Notes under the pieces: generated by a model | Databases searched by the model: none | Seen by the model: only the letters and a program-made list of their open reading frames with translations | Told to the model about the DNA's origin: nothing | Made by a program: the position numbers and the translations under genes | Source of the DNA: Leptolyngbya sp. FACHB-261 | GTDB taxonomy: Bacteria; Cyanobacteriota; Cyanobacteriia; FACHB-261 | Assembly: GCF_014696065.1 (NCBI RefSeq) | Contig: NZ_JACJPL010000031.1 | Span: 62,001 to 126,000 of the forward strand | Length of the DNA stretch: 64,000 bases | Direction of reading: 5' to 3' | In this document: positions 11,186 through 24,827 of the stretch, piece after piece | How the letters are laid out: every line of letters begins with the position of its first letter | How positions within the stretch are numbered: the stretch's first letter is position 1

Positions 11186-13231
11186 TTATCTCGATGCATT
11201 CTCTAGCCTCAAGGTCAAGTCCTCTAAACGAATTTGGAAACTACCGCCTTTACCTGACAGGGTCAGGACTTGGTAGGGTTTCTCAGTTCCTACCGTTTTC
11301 ACTTGAGCGGTGAAGGGCTCCGCCTCCGCCGATAGAACCCAAAGAAACTCTGCCTGTTCACCCTGAGCGGTGTAGCGCAGGGCAGCTGTGGGCTGAGTAT
11401 GCCCGGTCGAGTCGCGATACCAGCCACAAGGTTGAGGAGTCTGCTGACCCCGGCAGAGATTGCTGCCTACCCCTGCTTGTAGTTGCACGAAGCGAGCAAG
11501 GGTTTGTCCATTCTGTTGGGCGCTACCCGTACTGCCCTCAACCTGCATCTGCGCTTGGGGGCTGAAGTGAAAGGTCTGAGTGTAGTCGTGGCTTTCCTTG
11601 CCTTGTAGCCGGTCCCAAACCAAGAGATAGCGTGAGCCAATCCGAGCAACGCTGCGGATATGGGTCACATCGTCATAGGTGCGTTGCTCAGCGGTGACAT
11701 AGTCCAGACTGGGGCTACTACCAAAGGCCAAGACCTTGCCACCGTTGTCCACCGCTTTCTGTCGCAATGACAATTCATCTGCACCTAAACGGCGACGCTC
11801 TGCCAACAGCCAATCATCCAAGCCCAGCTTCTGCGCGGCACCCTGAAGCTTATTCCACTTCAGAAAGGACACCAATGGGCCCTGCGGTCCTTTGACTGTT
11901 GGCTTCTGCTCTAATTTGCCTACTTGCACAGTGTTGTGAGCTTGAGGCCCGAGGAAATAGTCATCACTTTTGGGCAAGTTGGCAGAGGGAATGACTAGGA
12001 GCGGTTGGTCGCCAAGCATGGCAGTGACCCCAAGTGCATCTTGGTGAGCATGGGGCGCATCCAGAATTCGCGTGTGAAAGACAATTTCTAAATCTTGAGC
12101 GGGACGAGCCTCAAAAAAACTGTAGCCGCCTTCTTTGTAGACGGCTAACCGTCGTTGTGTCTTGCCTTGTCTGACCTGCTCTAAGAGCCGCCGTCCAGGC
12201 GTATCAGGTCCTAGATCTAGCTCAGCCCAGTGCTTGAGGTAGTGATCGGTCAAGTTCTGGTCAGGCTCGCTGTAAGGTAAACCCTCCACCTTGCCATTGG
12301 ACCCTGCCATAAGAGCCGCAGCCCCCAGCATCTGATCGAGCTTTTGGCGATAGGCCAGCGACATGGGTCGTTCTAATGCTTCGGCGACGTGGGCAATTTC
12401 TAGAAATGTCCGCAGGGTGTAGAAGTGATAAACGCCTGACTGCTCTAACTGAATGCCATCTGGGGCGACGTTATCGCGCATCTGTTGCTCAGCCCGCTCC
12501 AGAGCCAGATCGACCCAGCCTCTGGACTCGGGTAGCTCCCGAAAGGTTGTGCCTAGAGCCAGGAGCGCCATGGCATTGTTGAGGCCGTGGTTGTGATCAG
12601 GCATGTAAATTTCGTTGCGGCTGAGTAATTGCCCTTGAGTCTCAGCTAAGTCGCTCAGCCGCTTCTGGAAATCTGGATCTGCCTGGGGAGCTTGTGCCGA
12701 AACCCGGTACAGATAGCTCAGAAGGATCGAGCGCCACGAGGTGGCGTGCTCCTCCCAGCCGTCCTTGTTATCTTTCCAGGTCCAGTCTGTCACTGCTCCC
12801 TTCAAGGGATTTTGGGCCTGCCAATCGAGGACGACCTGCTTGGCCTGGTCTAAAGCCTGAGTATCGCCTGTTTCACCTGCCTGAACCAAGCACTCCAGAA
12901 AGCGCAGGCTGTGCAAATTGAACATGAAGTACTTGGAACGCCCGGTCTGTGCTCTCCAATCGGGTTTCAGGCTGATGGTTGCAGTCGAATCCTTAGCCAG
13001 TGGTAATTGGCCTTCCCTCAAGAGGCGAACCGTAGTCTGACAGCTTGCTTCAGCGTTCTCTGGGTCATTGCCAATGTTTTCTGGATAAAACACAGCTACA
13101 GAAGCCACCGCTTTAGGGCGTAACAGGGTGCCGCGCAGCCACAATAGACTGCCCACCGAGATCAATAGCAGGCCAGCCACGGTTAGCACCCGTAAAGGTG
13201 ACATTCCGGTTTTCTTGAGAGCTAAGGGCAT
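11186..13231 (-). CDS. Heparinase II/III-family polysaccharide lyase, membrane-anchored
   Basis: A 681-aa protein with one N-terminal hydrophobic segment (VLTVAGLLLISVGSLLWL), so periplasmic or anchored. The helical N-terminal half contains MPDHNHGLNNAMALLALG and GIQLEQSGVYHFYTL. The C-terminal half has DAPHAHQDALGVTAMLGDQP and AHNTVQVG. The His/Tyr/Asn positions match alginate-lyase-like toroids followed by a heparinase II/III beta domain. The likely role is cleaving an acidic polysaccharide made by this locus, during export or turnover. Substrate unknown. An alternative start at the Met of MSPLRVL would shorten it by 9 residues. Confidence 0.82.
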   Translation of the reverse strand: MPLALKKTGMSPLRVLTVAGLLLISVGSLLWLRGTLLRPKAVASVAVFYPENIGNDPENAEASCQTTVRLLREGQLPLAKDSTATISLKPDWRAQTGRSKYFMFNLHSLRFLECLVQAGETGDTQALDQAKQVVLDWQAQNPLKGAVTDWTWKDNKDGWEEHATSWRSILLSYLYRVSAQAPQADPDFQKRLSDLAETQGQLLSRNEIYMPDHNHGLNNAMALLALGTTFRELPESRGWVDLALERAEQQMRDNVAPDGIQLEQSGVYHFYTLRTFLEIAHVAEALERPMSLAYRQKLDQMLGAAALMAGSNGKVEGLPYSEPDQNLTDHYLKHWAELDLGPDTPGRRLLEQVRQGKTQRRLAVYKEGGYSFFEARPAQDLEIVFHTRILDAPHAHQDALGVTAMLGDQPLLVIPSANLPKSDDYFLGPQAHNTVQVGKLEQKPTVKGPQGPLVSFLKWNKLQGAAQKLGLDDWLLAERRRLGADELSLRQKAVDNGGKVLAFGSSPSLDYVTAEQRTYDDVTHIRSVARIGSRYLLVWDRLQGKESHDYTQTFHFSPQAQMQVEGSTGSAQQNGQTLARFVQLQAGVGSNLCRGQQTPQPCGWYRDSTGHTQPTAALRYTAQGEQAEFLWVLSAEAEPFTAQVKTVGTEKPYQVLTLSGKGGSFQIRLEDLTLRLENASR

Positions 13232-13278
13232 GGGGAACCGGCCATGAGGGAGGGCAATCGAAACTGCATTGAGGATCC

Positions 13279-14967
13279 TCAGTTGAGCGGGCGGCTATAA
13301 AGGCTCATCTTGAATTCGTCTAGAGGCATGGTACCCGTCAGCATTTGACTCTGGACTGGCTGGAGCCCAGCCGCTTTGAGAATCTGCTGAACCTCCTGCT
13401 GCTCGGCCTCGGTCGCTGGCTGATCAAAGAATGAGGGCTTCACGCTATCGAGCCAAATAACGCGAGGATACTCAATTGCTGCGGTTCTAAGTGCACTCAC
13501 TACCTTCGGGGCAGCCTGGGCCAGCAACATGACGGGAGCTGATGGGTCGAGGTAATAGGCCAAACGCAAGATATGACCGCGTGCGCGTGAGCTCATGGCA
13601 ATCAGCGTGGGAGTGGTCGGCTCCTGGGCGATGACATCAGCCAGAACATGCATTCCTTGACGCTGTCTGAGGCTGAAGTCACCAACGCTAATTGTCAAGT
13701 ACAGCAGCACCAAAGCCAGTGCTACGGCCTCACGCCAACGTCCAGCCAATCGTTCTACGCTTAGGGTAATTAGCAGCAGACAGCCTGGCAGCATGAAGAT
13801 CATGGCCCGGCCCATGCCAAAGCCCAGGGTTGTCTTGCGTCCCAGTACGTCTACAGCCAAGGCTAGGCCCAGAGGTAGCAGTCCCAGCAACAGGGCCACG
13901 ATCAGCATTTGTCGCTCGCCCCGTTGCCAGAGACTCCAACTGACTATGAGGAACGCGCTCCCAACCAAGACGCCTGCCAAAGTCGTCATCCAGTCAGGCA
14001 GACTAGTCACCCAGTCCCCGACAAGCAGGTGAATGCCTAGAACCTGCGCGGTGTTTTGCAAATGCTCCAGGTTAGCAGCCCAGAATCCAGCCGGAGTTGA
14101 GAAGCGATCCACATCAGCATTGCGTAATTGCTTTACTGTTCCCCACAGCGCCCAGGGCACTGTTAGCAGTACCCCAGCCCCCAAACGCAAGCCGTGCTGC
14201 CACCAATGCCGTCGGTCTAGATAAAGCACAACTGCGGCTAGGGCAATGAGCCAGTAGGCAAACAGGTAAAGCGTTAACAAACCAGCCGCCACTGATCCTG
14301 CGAGCAGACCGCTCCAAAGGAGCTGCTGTGGCCAGCTGCTAAGTAAGGATGTCTGCTGGTGCTTAATGATATAGAGCAGCGCCCAAGCGCCGAGCGTTGC
14401 CCACAAGACAACCGGCGCATACATGCGCAGATTGAGTGAGTGGAAAAAGTAAAACGGATTAACTCCTAGCAGTGCCGCCAGCAACAAACCGCTGCGATGA
14501 CCGCTGACGACTCGGCCTAAGCCATAGGCACAGCCCATAGCAGCGATGCTGCACAAAGCGCTCAAGCTGCGAGTGGCAACCTCACTGTTGCCAAATAGGC
14601 GAAGCCAGAAGTGTTGGCTCAGAAAAAACAGCAGGGGATGAGGTTCGCCTCCTAGCAGACTCTTGAGCAGGCCGACTAGGGTTTTGACGCTATCCTTCAA
14701 GCTCGATTCCGCCGGCAATCCCAAAACTGTCAAGTAGTCTGACAAGGGCGTCGGGGCTGGAATCGCGCTAGGTCCGTCATAGGCACTGAGCTGGCCTGCC
14801 GCAATATTGAGCGAAACGACCTCGTCATACCAAAACTCGCGGGTGCCCAAGTTGAGCAGACGCAGGACAACGCCGATCACGATCGCCGCTACCAGCAGCA
14901 ATTCCAGCGACAGACGCACCCGGGAGCGGTTGAATTGCAAGCCAGCAGCCATAGCAGGTCGGGTCAT
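13279..14967 (-). CDS. GT39/PMT_2-type membrane glycosyltransferase
   Basis: A 562-aa polytopic protein with roughly 10-12 hydrophobic helices. The first periplasmic loop carries EFWYDEVVSL, the acidic catalytic motif of GT39/PMT_2 GT-C enzymes. Such enzymes use polyprenyl-phosphate sugars as donors on the outer face of the membrane, which fits the two polyprenyl-type GT2 genes downstream. Its ATG overlaps the stop of the upstream GT2 gene by 4 bp (14964-14967). The acceptor, glycan or protein, is unknown. Confidence 0.85.
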   Translation of the reverse strand: MTRPAMAAGLQFNRSRVRLSLELLLVAAIVIGVVLRLLNLGTREFWYDEVVSLNIAAGQLSAYDGPSAIPAPTPLSDYLTVLGLPAESSLKDSVKTLVGLLKSLLGGEPHPLLFFLSQHFWLRLFGNSEVATRSLSALCSIAAMGCAYGLGRVVSGHRSGLLLAALLGVNPFYFFHSLNLRMYAPVVLWATLGAWALLYIIKHQQTSLLSSWPQQLLWSGLLAGSVAAGLLTLYLFAYWLIALAAVVLYLDRRHWWQHGLRLGAGVLLTVPWALWGTVKQLRNADVDRFSTPAGFWAANLEHLQNTAQVLGIHLLVGDWVTSLPDWMTTLAGVLVGSAFLIVSWSLWQRGERQMLIVALLLGLLPLGLALAVDVLGRKTTLGFGMGRAMIFMLPGCLLLITLSVERLAGRWREAVALALVLLYLTISVGDFSLRQRQGMHVLADVIAQEPTTPTLIAMSSRARGHILRLAYYLDPSAPVMLLAQAAPKVVSALRTAAIEYPRVIWLDSVKPSFFDQPATEAEQQEVQQILKAAGLQPVQSQMLTGTMPLDEFKMSLYSRPLN

Positions 14968-15986
14968 GAGGAGAAGCTCAGAGGGTCGGCACGGAGCGTT
15001 GACTGGCGATCTGAAGCGGGGGGCAGGGCTAGCGATGGAATTTCGCGAGCATTATCTGGTAGTTGTGCTGTCTTCTGGCCGTAGGCCCGCGCTTGCCGTC
15101 CCACTAAATCGATAGGGGTGCCAAGCAGATCGACAACACCAGCCTGACCCCGTAGCAGCTTGAGGCTAGCCTGCGGCAGCTCTTTCAGCAACCAACGCAG
15201 TGTCCGGTAACTGTATTCCTGCAAAGTCGGCTCACGCTGTAACGGGATGCCATGCAAGCTGTGCAGGTAGCGATTGGAGCGTCCATACCGTCGCCACTGC
15301 TTGCGAAACTCCGATAGGGTAGTCCGATGCCGATGGCGTACCACAGCCTCAGGAGCCGCTTCTAGGCGCCATTGCCCACTGTTTTGCACCCGCCAGCACA
15401 GGTCTGCATCCCCGCCGGTAGTCAGATAGGGTCGAAACAGACCAGCCTCTAGCAACGCTTCTCGCCGCACTGCCAAGTTTGCAGTTTGTCCATAGGGTCC
15501 TTGCGGGTGGGCGAGCGTGTGTCGTTGCGATAGCACTTGCTGCCGCTCCGCGTATTGTTCGAGCAAGCCTTCACTGGCTACCGCCAAAATTTCTCCTGCC
15601 ACCAAGCCAACTGCCGGATCGACAAAGGGGGCAACCAAAGCCGAAAGCCAACCTGGCTCAGGCCGACAGTCGGCATCAGTAAAAGCCAAGATCTCACCTT
15701 GAGCAGCCCGAATGCCGGTGTTACGGGCAGCATAGGAGCTCTGGATCTCTGTTTCGCTCAACAGCTTGAAGTGAGGCCGTTGACGGCAATGTTCGGTGAC
15801 GAGCTCACGGCTGCTGTCATTGGAATTGTTATCGACTATGAGGACTTCCAACTGCTCCACTGGGTAGGACTGACGGTCTAGCCCTGCCAATAGCTCGGGC
15901 AGATCGACAGCCCCGTCAAATACCGGCACAATCACCGAGACGGCAGGTAGGGATGAGTTGGGGCAGTCAGAGGAAACAGACAGCAT
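14964..15986 (-). CDS. GT2 family glycosyltransferase
   Basis: A 340-aa GT-A enzyme: VSVIVPVFDGAVDLPEL at the N-terminus, then LIVDNNSNDSS, catalytic FTDADCRPEPGW and GGDADLCWR. No transmembrane helix is evident, so it is probably a peripheral cytoplasmic enzyme. It is the first gene of the minus-strand glycan locus and is translationally coupled to the GT39 gene through ATGA. Donor and acceptor are not predictable. Confidence 0.87.
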   Translation of the reverse strand: MLSVSSDCPNSSLPAVSVIVPVFDGAVDLPELLAGLDRQSYPVEQLEVLIVDNNSNDSSRELVTEHCRQRPHFKLLSETEIQSSYAARNTGIRAAQGEILAFTDADCRPEPGWLSALVAPFVDPAVGLVAGEILAVASEGLLEQYAERQQVLSQRHTLAHPQGPYGQTANLAVRREALLEAGLFRPYLTTGGDADLCWRVQNSGQWRLEAAPEAVVRHRHRTTLSEFRKQWRRYGRSNRYLHSLHGIPLQREPTLQEYSYRTLRWLLKELPQASLKLLRGQAGVVDLLGTPIDLVGRQARAYGQKTAQLPDNAREIPSLALPPASDRQSTLRADPLSFSS

Positions 15987-16998
15987 ACTGTGTCAACTAC
16001 CTAGCAGTCGATCGTTACTGTTATAGGAGACATCACTGGAAGGATATGTATAGACTCTGTGAAATCCTAGAGGCAAACTGAGAAGTTTTTGCTCACCCCA
16101 GGAACAAACCTGGAGGTTATGGCAAAATTTCAGACCGTTCAGACCTAGCGTGTGTCTTGCCATGGCAAATGAAGTCTCAGACAAAGACTTAAGATGAGGG
16201 TCATCAGTGCCAGACGGGCTCGTTGCCCGTAAAGTCGCTCCGACCGTTTGTCTGCCATCTTGTCTGCCGTCATTGATTGTGAGCTTGCCGCCTCTACGGT
16301 CTTGGAAGCTGCCCCTACCTTGTTCTGGCTGGATCTGAGAACTTTGCCTGACAGGCTAGAGTTGGCTCCAATCATAGGCTTATTGGTTGAAGCTCACACT
16401 TAGATGCAGCCCTGTTGAGTTAGAGATCATCCGCAACTGATCGCCAGTGCGACTAGTCAAGGTTACAGTGCCACGGCTGAGTTGACTGAGATCCAGCGCA
16501 CTCCGCTAGACCCTTTCCCAATTGCTGAGGTGTAGCCCGTTACAGCGGGTTGTATCACTCTCACTGCTGGCTGTTCAGCAATCAAATCTACAGCTCTTAA
16601 GAAGGGGCTATTATCTGGTAGTTGTAGGGAACTGAACCTACCGGGACATGAGTCAGGTAGTGGCCCTCAAGAGAAGGGGCAAGTGCATAGATGTCAGTTC
16701 TAAATCGTGATTAGCTGCCCTCCGATAGGGCAGAGGTAACAGGATACTTTGAGCTACTTTTCCCCGGCCCACCTCATCTTGCTTGGTCTGTTTTGATCAA
16801 TGGCTTGGGTGAATCAACCAACATTTTTCGGATGATTCCGGCTTTCAGTGCCTTGGATCCTCCTTGTGATTCCCTTAATCTATCTCGCAAGATTTAGGAA
16901 GCGGGAGTGGCAAACTGGTTATCTTGAGTACATTAAGAACGCTTTAAACCGTGTTCATGTTTTCCAAATCGTTTGTGGCTTTAAGGACATTAACTTCA
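15987..16998. other. Long intergenic region (about 1 kb)
   Basis: No gene I can support. A minus-strand frame at 16145-16375 (76 aa) has no recognisable domain. On the minus strand at 16378-16512 a 41-codon open stretch ends in VTLTSRTGDQLRMISN...SVSFNQ and a stop; it reads like the tail of a decayed gene. CCCGTTACAGCGGG at 16536-16549 is a small stem-loop. The region must hold the promoters of the divergent GT2 gene and the HMLTA-repeat gene, but no clear -35/-10 pair stands out. Confidence 0.5.
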
Positions 16999-17496
16999 AT
17001 GCAAATTACTTTCAAAACGCTTGCTTTTGCCGCTTTACTTGGCCTTGGCGCAGTCACTGTGAATCAAGGAATCCAACTAAGCGAAACTCCTTCCGTACGC
17101 CATATGCTGACGGCCTCAGATAGCGTTAGGTCTTCTAACCAGTCTGATAGTTCAAACTCCAGCAGAAATCACATGCTGACGGCTGATGCTGGCTCGATGA
17201 GCAAGAAGCACATGCTGACGGCTTCAAATGTGACCAATCCTAACCAGTCTGATAGTTCAAACTCCAGCAGGAATCACATGCTGACGGCTGATGCTGACTC
17301 GATGAGCAAGAAGCATATGCTGACGGCTTCAAGTGTGATTAACCCTTCTGACAATCAGTATGATGTACGTGGCTTGGGCAAGTCTGGCTCCAGCAGGAAT
17401 CACATGCTGACTGCTGATGCTAGCTCGATGAGCAGAGAACAAATGCTGACCTCCGATGCTCGGTCCATGATGCGGGATCATATGTTGTACTCTTAA
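16999..17496 (+). CDS. Secreted HMLTA-repeat protein, unknown function
   Basis: A 165-aa protein I do not recognise. ATG 16999 is preferred: AAGGA lies about 11 nt upstream and it opens directly into a signal peptide (MQITFKTLAFAALLGLGAV). A longer frame from 16951 lacks a site. After the signal the mature part is Ser/Asn/Lys-rich and carries eight copies of one motif: RHMLTAS, NHMLTAD, KHMLTAS, NHMLTAD, KHMLTAS, NHMLTAD, EQMLTSD, DHMLYS. Two central 35-residue units are a recent tandem duplication. There is no Cys, no TM after the signal and no sorting tail. Repeated His-Met pairs and M-x-x-x-H spacings would suit soft-metal binding; a repeated-core peptide precursor is another possibility. 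Both are inference. Confidence 0.75.
   Translation: MQITFKTLAFAALLGLGAVTVNQGIQLSETPSVRHMLTASDSVRSSNQSDSSNSSRNHMLTADAGSMSKKHMLTASNVTNPNQSDSSNSSRNHMLTADADSMSKKHMLTASSVINPSDNQYDVRGLGKSGSSRNHMLTADASSMSREQMLTSDARSMMRDHMLYS
17135..17344 (+). repeat. Two tandem 105-bp repeats inside the HMLTA gene
   Basis: Units 17135-17239 and 17240-17344 differ at seven positions by eye, about half of them silent. Each encodes 35 residues with one NHMLTAD and one KHMLTAS. A shorter degenerate copy follows at about 17387-17460. The length is a multiple of three, so copy number can change without breaking the frame. Confidence 0.9.
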
Positions 17497-17690
17497 TCAA
17501 CTTTGGTCGTGTCTTGATTTAACTTTGATCAAAATTCTGGCGGCAGAACAGAGCACTCGACCTTGGTTGGGAGGTGTGCCAAGCCGTCAGAATTTTGCGT
17601 ATCACACATATCAGTTGCTAAAGGCGCACAAAGCTAGTGTCACAGGTACATGTGAGATTGTGTACTTAAAAGGCAACTGAGGGTCGGTCC

Positions 17691-19070
17691 ATGAGCGTCT
17701 CTGCTGAATTTCTTCAGGCACTGCAAGATATTGTTCCGGTTGGAGCGATACTCACCGATTTCGGTAGCCTGGAGCGTTTATCCAAAGACTATTACTGGTA
17801 CAGCCCCTGGCTGAAAGAGCAATTGGCCGACAAGCGGGCCGATGTTGTGGTGCAATGCACCACAGAAGCGCAAATCGTCGCGCTGCTGCGCTTGACCTAT
17901 CAGCATCGAGTGCCGATCACTGCTCGAGGCTTGGGTACCGGCAATTACGGCCAGATTGTGCCTTTGTATGGCGGGGTTCTGCTCGATCTCAAGCCGATGA
18001 ACCAGATCCTGGCATTCAGTAACGGCGGCGTGATCGCTGAGCCAGGGGTCAAACTCAGCACGATTGAGCAGGAGGGGCGTCAGCAGGGTCTAGAACTGCG
18101 TATGTACCCCAGCACCATCGGTACAGCTAGTATTGGTGGCTTTGTGGCTGGTGGCAGTGGGGGCATTGGTAGTATTGCTCACGGTGTCCTGCGTGATCGA
18201 GGCAACCTGCGTGCGCTGCGTCTGATCACAGCTGAAGCCGAGCCGCAAATTCTGGAATTGCGGGGACCCGAGATCGACCAAGCCCTTCATGCCTATGGCA
18301 CCAACGGCATCATTACTCAAGTCGATATGCCTTTAGCCCCTCGGGTAGACTGGCAGCAGTTGGCAGCTGGGTTTGGCAGCTGGCAGGCGGCGCACGACTT
18401 CACCTGGGCTGTTGCCTGCGCCACTGGTATTCAAAAGCGCATGATTGCAGGCTTAGAGCAGCCGATCGTGGCCTATGAAAAGCCCATTGCTGGCTACGCC
18501 AACCCAGATTTGCACACTGTGCTGCTGCTGATCTCACCCACAGATCTGCCTGAAGCCAAGTTGCTAGTTGCTGAACATGGGGGGGAAGTGACCGGTGAAG
18601 CTCCCCTATATGGCAAAGGCAGCCCAACCTTTAGTGACGCAACCTGGAACCACACTACTTTATGGGCCAAAAAACAGGATGACGCCCTGACCTACTTGCA
18701 GTGTGGCTTCACCGCCAATCGCACAGGCAGTTTAGAGCAGATGCAATTGCTGAAGACCAAATTTGGCGATGAGTTCCTGCTACACAGTGAGATGGTGCGA
18801 TTTCAGGGCAACGTGCAGTGCTGGGCGCTGCCGATTATCCGCTACAGCACTCGGGAACGACTTCAAGAAATGATCGATTACTGCGAGTCAATCGGTGTCT
18901 TTGTCTACAATCCGCACACTTACATCCTTGAAGACGGGGGGCATGATGCCGGCAATCCAGTTCAACTATCCTTCAAGCATCGAACGGACCCACGCGGTAT
19001 CTTAAACCCCGGCAAAATGCGCTTATTTCAGCAACCCGACCTCTACGGCTCTCCTGTTTTAGTTGAATAG
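17691..19070 (+). CDS. FAD-binding (PCMH/GlcD-type) oxidoreductase
   Basis: A 459-aa flavoenzyme of the FAD_binding_4/GlcD group. The N-terminal FAD domain has VPITARGLGTGNYGQ (pyrophosphate loop) and STIGTASIGGFVAGGSGGIG. The C-terminal part ends with HRTDPRGILNPGKM, the usual FAD-oxidase C-terminal signature. Such enzymes oxidise 2-hydroxyacids, sugars or alcohols; the substrate is unknown. GAGGGT lies 8 nt before the ATG. It is the first of five plus-strand metabolic genes that include a sulfonate-type transporter, though gaps of several hundred bases mean they are not all one transcript. Confidence 0.85.
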   Translation: MSVSAEFLQALQDIVPVGAILTDFGSLERLSKDYYWYSPWLKEQLADKRADVVVQCTTEAQIVALLRLTYQHRVPITARGLGTGNYGQIVPLYGGVLLDLKPMNQILAFSNGGVIAEPGVKLSTIEQEGRQQGLELRMYPSTIGTASIGGFVAGGSGGIGSIAHGVLRDRGNLRALRLITAEAEPQILELRGPEIDQALHAYGTNGIITQVDMPLAPRVDWQQLAAGFGSWQAAHDFTWAVACATGIQKRMIAGLEQPIVAYEKPIAGYANPDLHTVLLLISPTDLPEAKLLVAEHGGEVTGEAPLYGKGSPTFSDATWNHTTLWAKKQDDALTYLQCGFTANRTGSLEQMQLLKTKFGDEFLLHSEMVRFQGNVQCWALPIIRYSTRERLQEMIDYCESIGVFVYNPHTYILEDGGHDAGNPVQLSFKHRTDPRGILNPGKMRLFQQPDLYGSPVLVE

Positions 19071-20844: not shown

Positions 20845-21846
20845 ATGAGAAAGCTAATTTTGCCGATCAAGCGGCAATTCGTATGTCTATTTTTAGCGGC
20901 GGCGTTTGTATTCAGTGTAGTGAGTGGTTGCCGTAGTTCAACTGCCGATGCGCTAGCCACAGTTCGCGTAGACTATGCCTACTACAACCCGCTCAGCCTA
21001 GTTTTGAAAGAGAAGAAATGGCTGGAAGAGGAGTTTGCACAAGACGGCGTCAAAGTTGAGTGGGTCCTCAGTCAGGGCAGCAACAAAGCACTGGAGTTTC
21101 TCAACAGCAACAGTATTGATTTCGGTTCCACCGCTGGTGCCGCAGCTTTGATTGGCAAAGCGAATGGCAACCCGATCAAATCTGTTTATGTCTACTCCAA
21201 GCCGGAATGGACCGCGTTAGTTACTCAAGCCAATTCCAGCATTAACAAATTGGAAGACTTGAAAGGCAAACGGCTGGCAGCTACCCGTGGCACAGATCCC
21301 TATGTCTTCTTGCTGCGGGCCCTCGACAGTGTTGGCTTAAGTGAGAAAGATGTTGAGCTGATTCAGCTGCAGCATGCGGATGGCAGAGCCGCCTTAGAAA
21401 AAGGCGATGTGGATGCTTGGGCTGGTTTAGATCCGCATATGGCTAAGACGGAAGTTGAAAAAGGCTCTCGCCTGTTCTTCCGCAACCCGGATTGGAATAC
21501 TTACGGTGTACTCAATGTGCGAGAAGCATTCGCTAAAGAGCATCCAGAATCAGTCGAGCGGGTGATTCGAGCCTATGAGAAGGCACGCAAGTGGTCTCTA
21601 GAAAATCGCGCTGACCTCAAGGCAATTTGGGCCAGAGAGGCCAAGCTCAGCGACCCAGTTGCGACTAAGCAGCTCGAACGCGTTGGTTTAGACAACTCAA
21701 CAATTGGCGACACCCAGAAGCAGGCGATCAACGCGGCTGGTGATGTTCTGAAAAAGAGTGGAGTGATTCAAGCCTCCACAGACGTGCAAAAAACTGTGGA
21801 CGAGCTGATTGATCCGCAATATGTCACCAAAGTTTCTCAGCAATAA
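20845..21846 (+). CDS. ABC transporter substrate-binding lipoprotein, sulfonate type (SsuA-like)
   Basis: A 333-aa exported binding protein. The N-terminus is a lipoprotein signal ending in the lipobox VVSGC. The body is an NMT1/SsuA-like type II periplasmic fold: VDYAYYNPLSLVLKEKKWLEE, FLNSNSIDFGSTAGAAAL, LKGKRLAATRGTDPYVFLLRAL, LEKGDVDAWAGLDPHMA. This matches aliphatic-sulfonate binding proteins, though taurine, nitrate or thiamine-precursor relatives share the fold. Permease and ATPase genes follow directly. Confidence 0.88.
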   Translation: MRKLILPIKRQFVCLFLAAAFVFSVVSGCRSSTADALATVRVDYAYYNPLSLVLKEKKWLEEEFAQDGVKVEWVLSQGSNKALEFLNSNSIDFGSTAGAAALIGKANGNPIKSVYVYSKPEWTALVTQANSSINKLEDLKGKRLAATRGTDPYVFLLRALDSVGLSEKDVELIQLQHADGRAALEKGDVDAWAGLDPHMAKTEVEKGSRLFFRNPDWNTYGVLNVREAFAKEHPESVERVIRAYEKARKWSLENRADLKAIWAREAKLSDPVATKQLERVGLDNSTIGDTQKQAINAAGDVLKKSGVIQASTDVQKTVDELIDPQYVTKVSQQ

Positions 21847-21857
21847 GTGAACCGAGC

Positions 21858-22739
21858 ATGAGCAACTCCCGTAAATCAGCAGGATGGTTTTCAAGCCCGC
21901 GCCCAAGCAATACTGTTCTATCCAAGGCATCCAACCCATTACAACTATTGAGCAAACGCAAAGGCAGACAAAGCTCAAGGTTGAACTGGGCAACTGGGCT
22001 GATTGTGCCTGCCATCTTGCTGATCCTGTGGGAGATTCTGTCGCGAACTGGCGTGTTTGCAGCCAATTTACTGCCAGCTCCTTCGGTAGTGCTGCTAACT
22101 ATTGTTGACTTAGCAGTAGACGGCGATTTACTACACCACATTGGTGCTACTCTTTCTCGGCTCTTGCTAGGTTTTTTAGTGGGTGCGGGTTTGGCAACGA
22201 TTTTAGGCGCGCTAACTGGTTATTCGCACGCTGCGCGTCAGTTACTAGATCCTCTGTTGCAAGCCCTGCGCAATATCCCTTCGCTGGCCTGGGTGCCGCT
22301 GTTTATTCTATGGATGGGCATTTATGAAACTTCAAAAATAGCCTTGATTGCGGTGGGTGTTTTCTTTCCGATCTATCTCAATTTAATGAGCGGCATTCAG
22401 AATGTTGACCGCAAGCTAGTCGAGGTTGGCCGCATCTACCGCTTGAAGGGATTTCAGCTGGTTCGCCGTGTTTTTTTACCGGCAACACTGCCCGCTTACA
22501 TTCTCGGTTTGCGGGGCGGATTAGGGCTAGGTTGGATGTTCGTGGTTGCGGCAGAAATTATGGGGGCCAGTCAGGGTTTAGGTTTCCTGATGACTGATGG
22601 ACAAGCCACAGGCCGCCCCGCAATGATTCTGGCGAGCATTCTTCTGTTTGCTGTTTTTGGCAAATTGACCGATGCAGTTCTCGCGCATTTTGGACAGCGC
22701 CTGCTGAAGTGGCAAGACTCATACGGCTCACGCTCCTAA
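21858..22739 (+). CDS. ABC transporter permease, sulfonate type (SsuC-like)
   Basis: A 293-aa inner-membrane permease of the BPD_transp_1 family with about six TM helices after a 50-residue cytoplasmic N-terminus. The EAA loop reads VGRIYRLKGFQLVRRVFLPA. It starts 11 bp after the binding-protein gene and is clearly co-transcribed. SsuC-like permeases form a homodimer with the ATPase encoded next. Confidence 0.88.
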   Translation: MSNSRKSAGWFSSPRPSNTVLSKASNPLQLLSKRKGRQSSRLNWATGLIVPAILLILWEILSRTGVFAANLLPAPSVVLLTIVDLAVDGDLLHHIGATLSRLLLGFLVGAGLATILGALTGYSHAARQLLDPLLQALRNIPSLAWVPLFILWMGIYETSKIALIAVGVFFPIYLNLMSGIQNVDRKLVEVGRIYRLKGFQLVRRVFLPATLPAYILGLRGGLGLGWMFVVAAEIMGASQGLGFLMTDGQATGRPAMILASILLFAVFGKLTDAVLAHFGQRLLKWQDSYGSRS

Positions 22740-22800
22740 AATCCAGGGTCAATCAAGAGCTGGCAAACTAAAAAATTATGCAAAATTTGTTGAGAAATTT

Positions 22801-23553
22801 ATGCTGAGGCTGGACGAGATTCACAAACAATTTGACAACGGCTTCACTGCCTTGGCATCAATTAATCTGCGAGTCCAGCCTGGCGAAGTGGTCAGCTTAG
22901 TGGGAACAAGCGGCTGTGGCAAAAGCACCTTGCTGCGCATTATCTCAGGTCTGGACACGCCAACTTCAGGAGGAGTTTGGATTGGTAACCAAGCTATTAT
23001 TGAACCCCACCCTGAGATCGGCATTATTTTCCAAGAACCTCGGCTAATGCCCTGGTTAACGGTGCAAGAAAATGTAAAATTTGGTTTGAGAAAATTAGTC
23101 AAAGCTGAACAGGAAAGACTGGCTCACGAGGCAATTGCCAAGGTAGGCTTAGTCGAATTTGCCCAGGCCCTACCGCGTCAGCTGTCGGGTGGTATGGCCC
23201 AACGAGCTGCGATTGCCAGAGCTCTGGTAACTCAACCCTCGATTTTGCTACTGGATGAGCCTTTCAGCGCTCTGGATGCCTTTACTCGCATGAAGTTGCA
23301 GGAACATCTCTTAGAAATTTGGCAAGATGATCAGCCAACCATGATTCTAGTGACTCACGACATCGAAGAGGCTCTAGTTTTGAGCGATCGAGTTGTGGTT
23401 ATGCGAGGCAATCCAGGCCGAATCCATCAAGAGTTTGTGCCCAACCTTCCCAGGCCACGCAAGCGAACCGAGCTGAGTTTTCAGCATTGGAAGGAACGAC
23501 TACTGAGCGAATTAGATCTATCGTTTACTGATTCACCCTTGGCTGAGGTTTAG
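22801..23553 (+). CDS. ABC transporter ATP-binding protein, sulfonate type (SsuB-like)
   Basis: A 250-aa ABC ATPase. Walker A GTSGCGKS, Q-loop FQEPRLMPW, signature LSGGMAQR, Walker B ILLLDEP, D-loop SALD and H-loop THD are all intact. The FQEPRLMPW Q-loop and the length are typical of nitrate/sulfonate/taurine importers. It lies 61 bp after the permease gene and completes a full importer. Confidence 0.9.
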   Translation: MLRLDEIHKQFDNGFTALASINLRVQPGEVVSLVGTSGCGKSTLLRIISGLDTPTSGGVWIGNQAIIEPHPEIGIIFQEPRLMPWLTVQENVKFGLRKLVKAEQERLAHEAIAKVGLVEFAQALPRQLSGGMAQRAAIARALVTQPSILLLDEPFSALDAFTRMKLQEHLLEIWQDDQPTMILVTHDIEEALVLSDRVVVMRGNPGRIHQEFVPNLPRPRKRTELSFQHWKERLLSELDLSFTDSPLAEV

Positions 23554-23645
23554 CCAACCTCCACCTCCCAAACTCCAACGAAAGCCTATCTAAGTAGGAT
23601 GGTCTGGGCCCAAGCCGCCGCTGCACTCATAACCGTATTTTCAGT

Positions 23646-24827
23646 ATGCAACTAGCCACTCAAGAGTTAACAGATTACAACGCTGTGGCAAAAGCCTTAG
23701 CCCAGGAATTTGCCACAACAGCGGCAGAACGGGATGCCAAGGGAGGCACAGCCCAGCATGAACGCGATCAATTGCGCCAGAGCGGCCTACTGAAGCTCAT
23801 GGTTCCTCAAGAATATGGGGGGATAGGGACAACCTGGGTTCAAACCTTGGGCATCGTGCGGGAGTTTGCCAAGGTTGACAGTTCGATTGCTCATATTTTC
23901 TCCTACCATCACCTCAGCGTAGTGGTCCCCCACCTGTTTGGTACTCCCGAACAGAAAGAGCGCTACTACTTACAAACCACCCGCAATAATTGGTTTTGGT
24001 GCAATGCATTTAACCCTCTAGATCGGCGTGTGACTTTAACAGCAGAGGGAAAACAGTTTCGACTCAATGGGACCAAAAGCTTTTGCTCTGGCTCCAAAGA
24101 TTCCGATCTCATTCCAGTGTCAGCCGTGCGCGAGGGCGACACCAAATTGGCCGTTGTAGTTGTGCCTACGGCGCGTGCGGGTATCACAGTCCATGACGAC
24201 TGGGACAATATGGGTCAGCGCCAAACGGATAGTGGCAGCATTACATTCGACAACGTTTTAGTTGAAGCTAGCGAAATTTTGGGACCGCCCGGTCCCTTCG
24301 GCAGTCCTTTTGGCACTCTGCGCTCCTGCCTGACACAAATTACCTTCGCCAATATCTATTTAGGAATTGCTCAGGGTGCCTTTGCTGCGGCAAAGCAGTA
24401 CACTGCCAGCACCACGAGACCCTGGTTGACCTCAGGGGTCGAGCAGGCCACTGAAGATCCTTACATCCTGCAACACTACGGCGAGATGTGGACGAATCTG
24501 AGTGGAGCTGAAGCCTTAGTCGATAAAGCAACCCAGTTGGTACAAACGGCTTGGGAGCAGGGAGAGCAACTCACGGCTGAGCAGCGAGGAGAATGTGCCC
24601 TCGCGATCGCCATTGCTAAAATCTCAGCCACCCGCATTGGCCTGGACGTCACTAGCCGGATCTTTGAGGTCATGGGCAGCCGGTCCACGGCAGCTAAATA
24701 CCGATTTGATCGTTACTGGCGTAACCTGCGCACCTTCACCCTGCACGATCCTGTTGATTACAAAGTGCGGGATGTGGGCGATTGGGCTCTCAATGATCAG
24801 CTGCCCACGCCTAATTTTTACTCCTAG
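23646..24827 (+). CDS. Acyl-CoA dehydrogenase-fold flavoprotein, DszC/SfnB-like
   Basis: A 393-aa protein with the acyl-CoA dehydrogenase fold: N-terminal helices (GGIGTTWVQTLGIVREFAKVD), middle beta domain (FRLNGTKSFCSGS, DNMGQRQTDSGSITFDNVLV) and C-terminal helices ending RNLRTFTLHDPVDYKVRDVG. The motif NWFWCNAFNPLDRR and overall pattern are closer to the DszC/SfnB group of FMN-dependent sulfur monooxygenases than to true acyl-CoA dehydrogenases; the catalytic Glu of the latter is not evident. Next to a sulfonate-type importer, it may oxidise an organosulfur compound to release sulfur. Substrate and flavin reductase partner are unknown. Confidence 0.8.
   Translation: MQLATQELTDYNAVAKALAQEFATTAAERDAKGGTAQHERDQLRQSGLLKLMVPQEYGGIGTTWVQTLGIVREFAKVDSSIAHIFSYHHLSVVVPHLFGTPEQKERYYLQTTRNNWFWCNAFNPLDRRVTLTAEGKQFRLNGTKSFCSGSKDSDLIPVSAVREGDTKLAVVVVPTARAGITVHDDWDNMGQRQTDSGSITFDNVLVEASEILGPPGPFGSPFGTLRSCLTQITFANIYLGIAQGAFAAAKQYTASTTRPWLTSGVEQATEDPYILQHYGEMWTNLSGAEALVDKATQLVQTAWEQGEQLTAEQRGECALAIAIAKISATRIGLDVTSRIFEVMGSRSTAAKYRFDRYWRNLRTFTLHDPVDYKVRDVGDWALNDQLPTPNFYS

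Follow-up and report, generated by a model that had tools for sequence, protein, structure and literature searches.

The window analysed here, a 64,000-nucleotide stretch of the Leptolyngbya sp. FACHB-261 genome, carries a gene for a small repeat protein (positions 16999-17496), which almost certainly belongs, as its most divergent member, to a dispersed family of paralogues whose core copies are under constraint. The family comprises at least 14 small, Cys-free repeat proteins with a Sec-type signal peptide, as read from their open reading frames, and has so far been seen in the source genome only. Lineage-born and lineage-expanded gene families are rarely caught with such a copy number, strong purifying selection and a common promoter.

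The window gene and its repeats

All window features given below lie on the forward strand. The gene is an ATG-initiated open reading frame encoding 165 amino acids and is preceded by the likely ribosome-binding site AAGGA (16983-16987), which was read from the sequence 11 nt upstream of the ATG; an alternative GTG start at position 16951 would add 16 amino acids. The hydrophobic N-terminus MQITFKTLAFAALLGLGAVTVNQG (16999-17070) resembles a signal peptide by inspection; a canonical AxA cleavage site is absent from it, whereas inspection of the core paralogues reveals AQA. The protein contains no Cys, and its last 141 residues include 33 Ser and 13 Met. A hairpin 3' of the stop codon (AAAATTCTGGCGG ... 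CCGTCAGAATTTT, 17531-17596) is a possible terminator, and a gene for an FAD-binding oxidase (PF01565) starts at 17691, 194 bp downstream. The other neighbours are DUF1838 and an NMT1-type ABC system; genes for an NMT1-type substrate-binding protein, an ABC permease, an ATPase and an acyl-CoA-dehydrogenase-like protein occupy positions 20845-24827 and possibly form a sulfur-compound uptake cluster. A sequence-only reading of this DNA had described a Cys-free 165-residue repeat protein with a signal-peptide-like start, belonging to no recognised family and followed by an FAD oxidase 194 bp downstream, and all of this held. None of the Pfam and NCBIfam models scored above cut-off for the window protein, the best hit of a PDB sequence search had an E-value of only 0.35, Rfam gave no match at the gene, and HMLTA was not found in any paper in the literature. 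A single-sequence AlphaFold model had a mean pLDDT of 48 and was uninformative and unusable.

The window protein contains eight HMLTA-like motifs, six of which are exact (17101-17115, as RHMLTA; 17170-17184; 17209-17223; 17275-17289; 17314-17328; 17401-17415), followed by the degenerate versions QMLTS (17440-17454) and HMLYS (17479-17493). They are spaced by 23, 13, 22, 13, 29, 13 and 13 residues, and in the paralogues spacings of 13 prevail, interspersed with one or two of 29 or 32. The HMLTA unit constitutes the last part of a repeat of 13 residues; the same reading had counted eight heptapeptides, of which the number stands and the unit does not. The 13-residue register is preserved in the window protein although the IPxxV half of the repeat is now Ser-rich, and copy number and register together exclude chance as the origin of the motifs. 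Two 105-nt units of 35 codons each (17135-17239 and 17240-17344) are 93% identical, compared to 63% for a third stretch (17366-17470), and the 31 codons compared show four substitutions between them, of which two are silent and two are not (pS 0.107, pN 0.027), in agreement with the two near-identical 35-residue units and the roughly half silent changes reported before. Since only four substitutions separate the units, constraint is not provable from the window gene alone.

A family of dispersed paralogues

A search of the 6.95 Mb genome (36 contigs) with the window protein returned the protein itself (E 3.2e-98) and further loci, the next and best of them with an E-value of 4.8e-11, and a profile built from nine sequences raised the number of loci. 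The 14 members are the window gene on contig C31, two copies on C30, three on C16 and one each on C8, C10, C36, C33, C22, C23, C27 and C18, with the C33 member interrupted by a contig end. Each protein contains one to seven copies of the repeat [AE]IPxx[VIL]R[DEN][HR][MLF][LE]TA, and most also possess the segment GPSDxQYDVRxL and the short C-terminal tail DNGYYTGLIQQA. A typical member, C16a, starts with MKSTLRNAALATLFTLGLASAAQA and continues with AIPEKIRERFETA, AIPTQVRDHMLTA, EIPQQLRDRLLTA, SAGVIGPSDSQYDVRNLQA, AIPDKIRERFETA, AIPTQVRDHLLTA and SASPEDNGYYTGLIQQA; in several core proteins, repeat 1 begins directly after the expected signal-peptidase site (AQA/AIPEK). The family tree assigns the window gene the longest end branch (1.78).

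Conservation within the repeat is uneven. Over 67 repeats, T12 is kept in 66, A13 in 65 and R7 in 56. In the 59 repeats of the 13 paralogues, position 9 is occupied by His (38) or Arg (21), and position 10 by Met (22), Leu (19) or Phe (18). His-Met is thus frequently replaced by His-Leu, Arg-Leu or Arg-Phe in the paralogues, and nearly all-HM repeats are confined to the window protein (7/8 motifs) and the C23 copy (4/5 repeats). Several candidate assignments for the repeats were rejected: a DUF6374 match on the C22 paralogue (26.2 bits against a threshold of 25) extended over 13 residues with no single stretch passing and is attributed to chance on repeats, matches to DUF7750 and PPDK_N/PEP-synthase covered short stretches on repeats and were likewise judged chance, and an amphipathic-helix reading of the 13-mer failed because its hydrophobic moments did not exceed those of shuffles.

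Genes shared through segmental duplication aside, the 14 loci have no recurring neighbour. A comparison of copy number and neighbours, which had been suggested as a check, yielded variable repeat numbers and no recurring neighbourhood outside the shared segments. At loci L041, L043, L044 and L048, the family copies sit in duplicated segments (1.5-3.6 kb, 82-94% identical) next to a large open reading frame of 1126-1263 amino acids; Pfam gave no match to the 1126-residue version (L048) at E 0.001. At L042 on contig C36 (~12380-16500), a long direct-repeat array with a period of ~70 bp, probably a CRISPR array, lies ~4 kb downstream of a family member.

Selection and shared regulatory sequences

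Nei-Gojobori estimates from pairwise alignments gave dN/dS values of mostly 0.04-0.25 between core copies, with dS above 1 in many pairs, and up to 0.36 for pairs involving the divergent C18 copy. By these pairwise estimates, the core copies are under strong purifying selection. The sequence-only reading had regarded the peptide as constrained, which applies at the level of the family and does not follow from the window gene by itself; the Ka/Ks check for neutral drift of the repeats likewise came out in favour of constraint among the core paralogues. Values between the window gene and core copies are mostly 0.2-0.55, in one case 0.77, with dS saturated in most comparisons.

Most core copies share a TTGACA-17-TACATT promoter, followed by a leader of ~50 nt with a ribosome-binding site. 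GTTGA at the -35 position and TACATT at 17-bp spacing are present in 9 of the 11 core copies displayed, and C10 and C30b have TTAACA and TTAATA, respectively, at -35. The last 105 nt upstream of the core genes are ~0.69-0.93 identical, whereas the preceding 105 nt are mostly unalignable except in segmental duplicates; in the C8/C22 pair (dS 1.57), the corresponding values are 86% and 12%, the latter being unalignable. Allowing one mismatch, the promoter-box pattern matched 14 times in the genome, 12 of them at family genes, and the leader pattern, with three mismatches, matched 11 times, always at family genes; both reversed controls gave 0 matches. Judged from these alignments, the sharing of promoter and leader shows common descent and constraint. 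The core copies look individually transcribed, because they are strongly constrained and most have the same promoter and leader. The two promoter-box matches away from the family (C1:454262 and C15:101126, the latter between a TetR-like and a CDGSH-like gene) were rejected as a regulon, as their number is about that expected by chance (~0.6 estimated). Upstream of the window gene, the promoter scan gave 0 matches, and in comparison with the core copies, the family promoter, leader and C-tail are not recognisable in the window copy.

Upstream of position 8065 of C22 (L045), an 11-bp inverted repeat surrounds the promoter, with CTCAGACTGTT at -35 as one arm and AACAGTCTGAG in the leader as the other. 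The arms could represent paired operator sites, and other core copies have shorter versions of the repeat. Most core genes are followed by a GC-rich hairpin and T-rich sequence, and CACGACTTTGACGATTTCCTCAGAC is conserved between stop codon and terminator hairpin in most core copies; on the opposite strand, it could read MSEEIVKVV.

Module B and the DUF305 domain

The GPSD segment, here called module B, has the family consensus (I/V)GPSDxQYDVRxLxxAIP and resembles the start of cyanobacterial DUF305 domains, LGPADxxYDLRFIDAMIP. In the window protein, it corresponds to SVINPSDNQYDVRGLGKS (17317-17388), whose E-value of 6.8e-13 is circular, since the protein's own sequence was in the query alignment. 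A comparison of module B with the DUF305 start by hhalign gave an E-value of 3e-4 with a probability of just 39% (19 columns, 47% identity), and the ungapped profile score of 40.9 was reached by none of 5000 column shuffles (13.5 +/- 2.5). Module B is thus highly likely to be homologous to the DUF305 start, as judged by these profile comparisons. For the 13-mer itself, an origin from DUF305 helix 1 was not supported (P 0.06 and 0.79), and the supported relationship is limited to module B. Neither the window protein nor the core members tested matched PF03713 at the gathering cut-off, and at the HH position of DUF305 (LGPADxxYDLRFIDAMIPHH), the family copies compared have residues other than His.

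Three further proteins, on C20, C13 and C1, possess a GPSD segment but lack the repeats, those on C13 and C1 being of the secreted type. The C20 protein is a degenerate DUF305 protein (E 1.5e-9 against a profile of DUF305 sequences from other genomes; 25.1 against PF03713, below the cut-off of 27) and carries GPSDPQYDVRML, whose likeness to the family segment exceeds that of all 2000 shuffles; a substrate-binding-protein gene lies near this gene, too. To judge by the module-B proteins, the new repeat family may have evolved step by step from DUF305, a conserved secreted domain. The genome also encodes an ordinary, Met/His-rich two-domain DUF305 (CopM-like) protein at L051 (G000:C26, 1248-1971), with an OmpR-type response regulator gene upstream on the other strand. 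DUF305 domains contain a conserved HH motif, and CopM of Synechocystis PCC 6803, which consists of two such domains, binds copper in the periplasm and medium and is partly extracellular (PMC4335983).

Distribution beyond the source genome

No relative was found at E <= 0.001 when the window protein was compared with 58 other genomes of the class or profile A1 with 385 others from the phylum. With the limit relaxed to E <= 0.05, a search of 390 class genomes returned scattered weak matches only; those in 11 other class genomes (E 0.003-0.05) do not exceed the chance expectation for 390 genomes, and inspection of five weak-match loci revealed no similar small secreted open reading frame. Scans combining a pattern with tblastn across 84,980 species genomes and searches of plasmids, viral contigs and, with a core-protein query, phages likewise gave no relative. 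A survey for HMLTA-repeat homologues, proposed earlier, yielded at least 14 members in the source genome, the window protein included, and none in ~390 sampled class genomes or, by pattern search, in 84,980 species genomes. As the sampled relatives shared only the class, unsampled members of the same order may carry the family.

Possible functions of the family

The preferred, if tentative, prediction is that the family consists of multivalent secreted surface or matrix proteins. This reading is based on export, which was itself predicted from signal peptides by inspection, and on repeats, copy number and constraint; none of the sequence features is specific to a matrix or adhesion role. The 13-mers would act as weak, additive binding or assembly units on exported proteins, for instance in a surface coat, a matrix or adhesion, and their number would be free to vary. 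The DUF305-like segment may be left over from a CopM-like secreted ancestor as a docking remnant, and the window gene would have drifted or become re-specialised, retaining the motif and losing the rest. Taken as a whole, this explanation, a divergent member of a constrained family with a surface or matrix role and a CopM-like remnant, is plausible but falls short of an even chance.

It is rather unlikely, though conceivable under any explanation of the whole family, that the window copy is a paralogue in decay that now has little or no function and whose repeats were made uniform by recent 105-nt duplications. The near-identical motif codons point to recent amplification, and the poor signal-peptidase site, the longest branch, the missing promoter match, the loss of a recognisable family promoter, leader and C-tail, and dN/dS values to core copies of mostly 0.2-0.55 all fit decay; however, the 165-codon frame is open, the 13-residue register and module B are intact, and the gene has both a ribosome-binding site and a strong 3' hairpin. 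That the family as a whole spreads as a selfish or plasmid-linked cassette, not for host benefit, is very unlikely. Several copies do lie in the 1.5-3.6 kb duplicated segments (82-94% identity) beside the 1126-1263 residue open reading frame, whose 1126-residue version is without a Pfam match, and many are on contigs of 48-125 kb; yet purifying selection on the proteins is strong, contigs of 0.28-1.03 Mb carry three copies and the outlier, the homology of the other copies is confined to promoter, gene and terminator, and no adjoining transposase was found.

The sequence-only reading had suggested a soft-metal (Cu/Ag) buffer, in which the His-Met pair of each repeat would bind metal extracellularly. 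The DUF305-like segment found here would then be a trace of a CopM-like ancestor. HM in 7/8 window motifs and 4/5 C23 repeats, 13 Met among the last 141 window residues and the resemblance of module B to the start of a domain found in a copper-binding protein (PMC4335983) are consistent with it, and the DUF305 link lends a metal ancestry indirect support. Among the 59 paralogue repeats, however, Arg replaces His in 21 and Leu or Phe replaces Met in 37, the conserved HH of DUF305 is absent, no copper gene recurs next to the copies, and an ordinary DUF305 protein of two domains, adjoined by an OmpR-type regulator, is encoded in the genome. With His in 38 and Met in 22 of the 59 repeats and the HH absent, a metal sponge is not supported as a family-wide function and is quite improbable; a metal role for the HM-rich branch, the window protein and C23, is conceivable.

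Improbable, too, is the other suggestion of the sequence-only reading, a secreted-peptide precursor, whose repeats would be cut at TA/[AE]IP or around HMLTA to release a signal, antimicrobial or pheromone. It would accommodate a conserved unit in variable number, the near-invariance of T12 (66/67) and A13 (65/67) and the start of repeat 1 directly after the expected signal-peptidase site in several core proteins (AQA/AIPEK), but no protease, transporter, modification or maturation gene recurs next to the 14 loci, the window gene adjoins an FAD-binding oxidase, DUF1838 and an NMT1-type ABC system, Ser-rich linkers replace the IPxxV half in the window protein, and conservation extends beyond the repeat to the C-tail and module B. 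Quite doubtful, too, is the combined reading of a lineage-specific family of secreted 13-residue repeats that arose from a duplicated, eroded CopM-like (DUF305) protein and whose units, freed at TA/[AE]IP or displayed serially, act under one common promoter as peptides for recognition or signalling specific to the species.

Comparison with known systems

Like DUF305 proteins (PF03713) including CopM, the family proteins are of the secreted type, and the two share the start segment; the family differs in that it shares only ~19 residues, lacks the HH and the rest of the domain, and possesses 13-residue repeats not found in DUF305. SilE and PcoE are exported, small, His- and Met-containing and probably disordered, which the window protein resembles; unlike them, it has no family match, and its paralogues lack conserved His and Met. 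Repeated-core precursors, such as multi-core RiPPs and fungal Kex2-processed repeat proteins, similarly combine a signal peptide with a variable number of similar units, whereas the present family, which has no recurring maturation gene, consists of dispersed single genes with conserved non-repeat modules.
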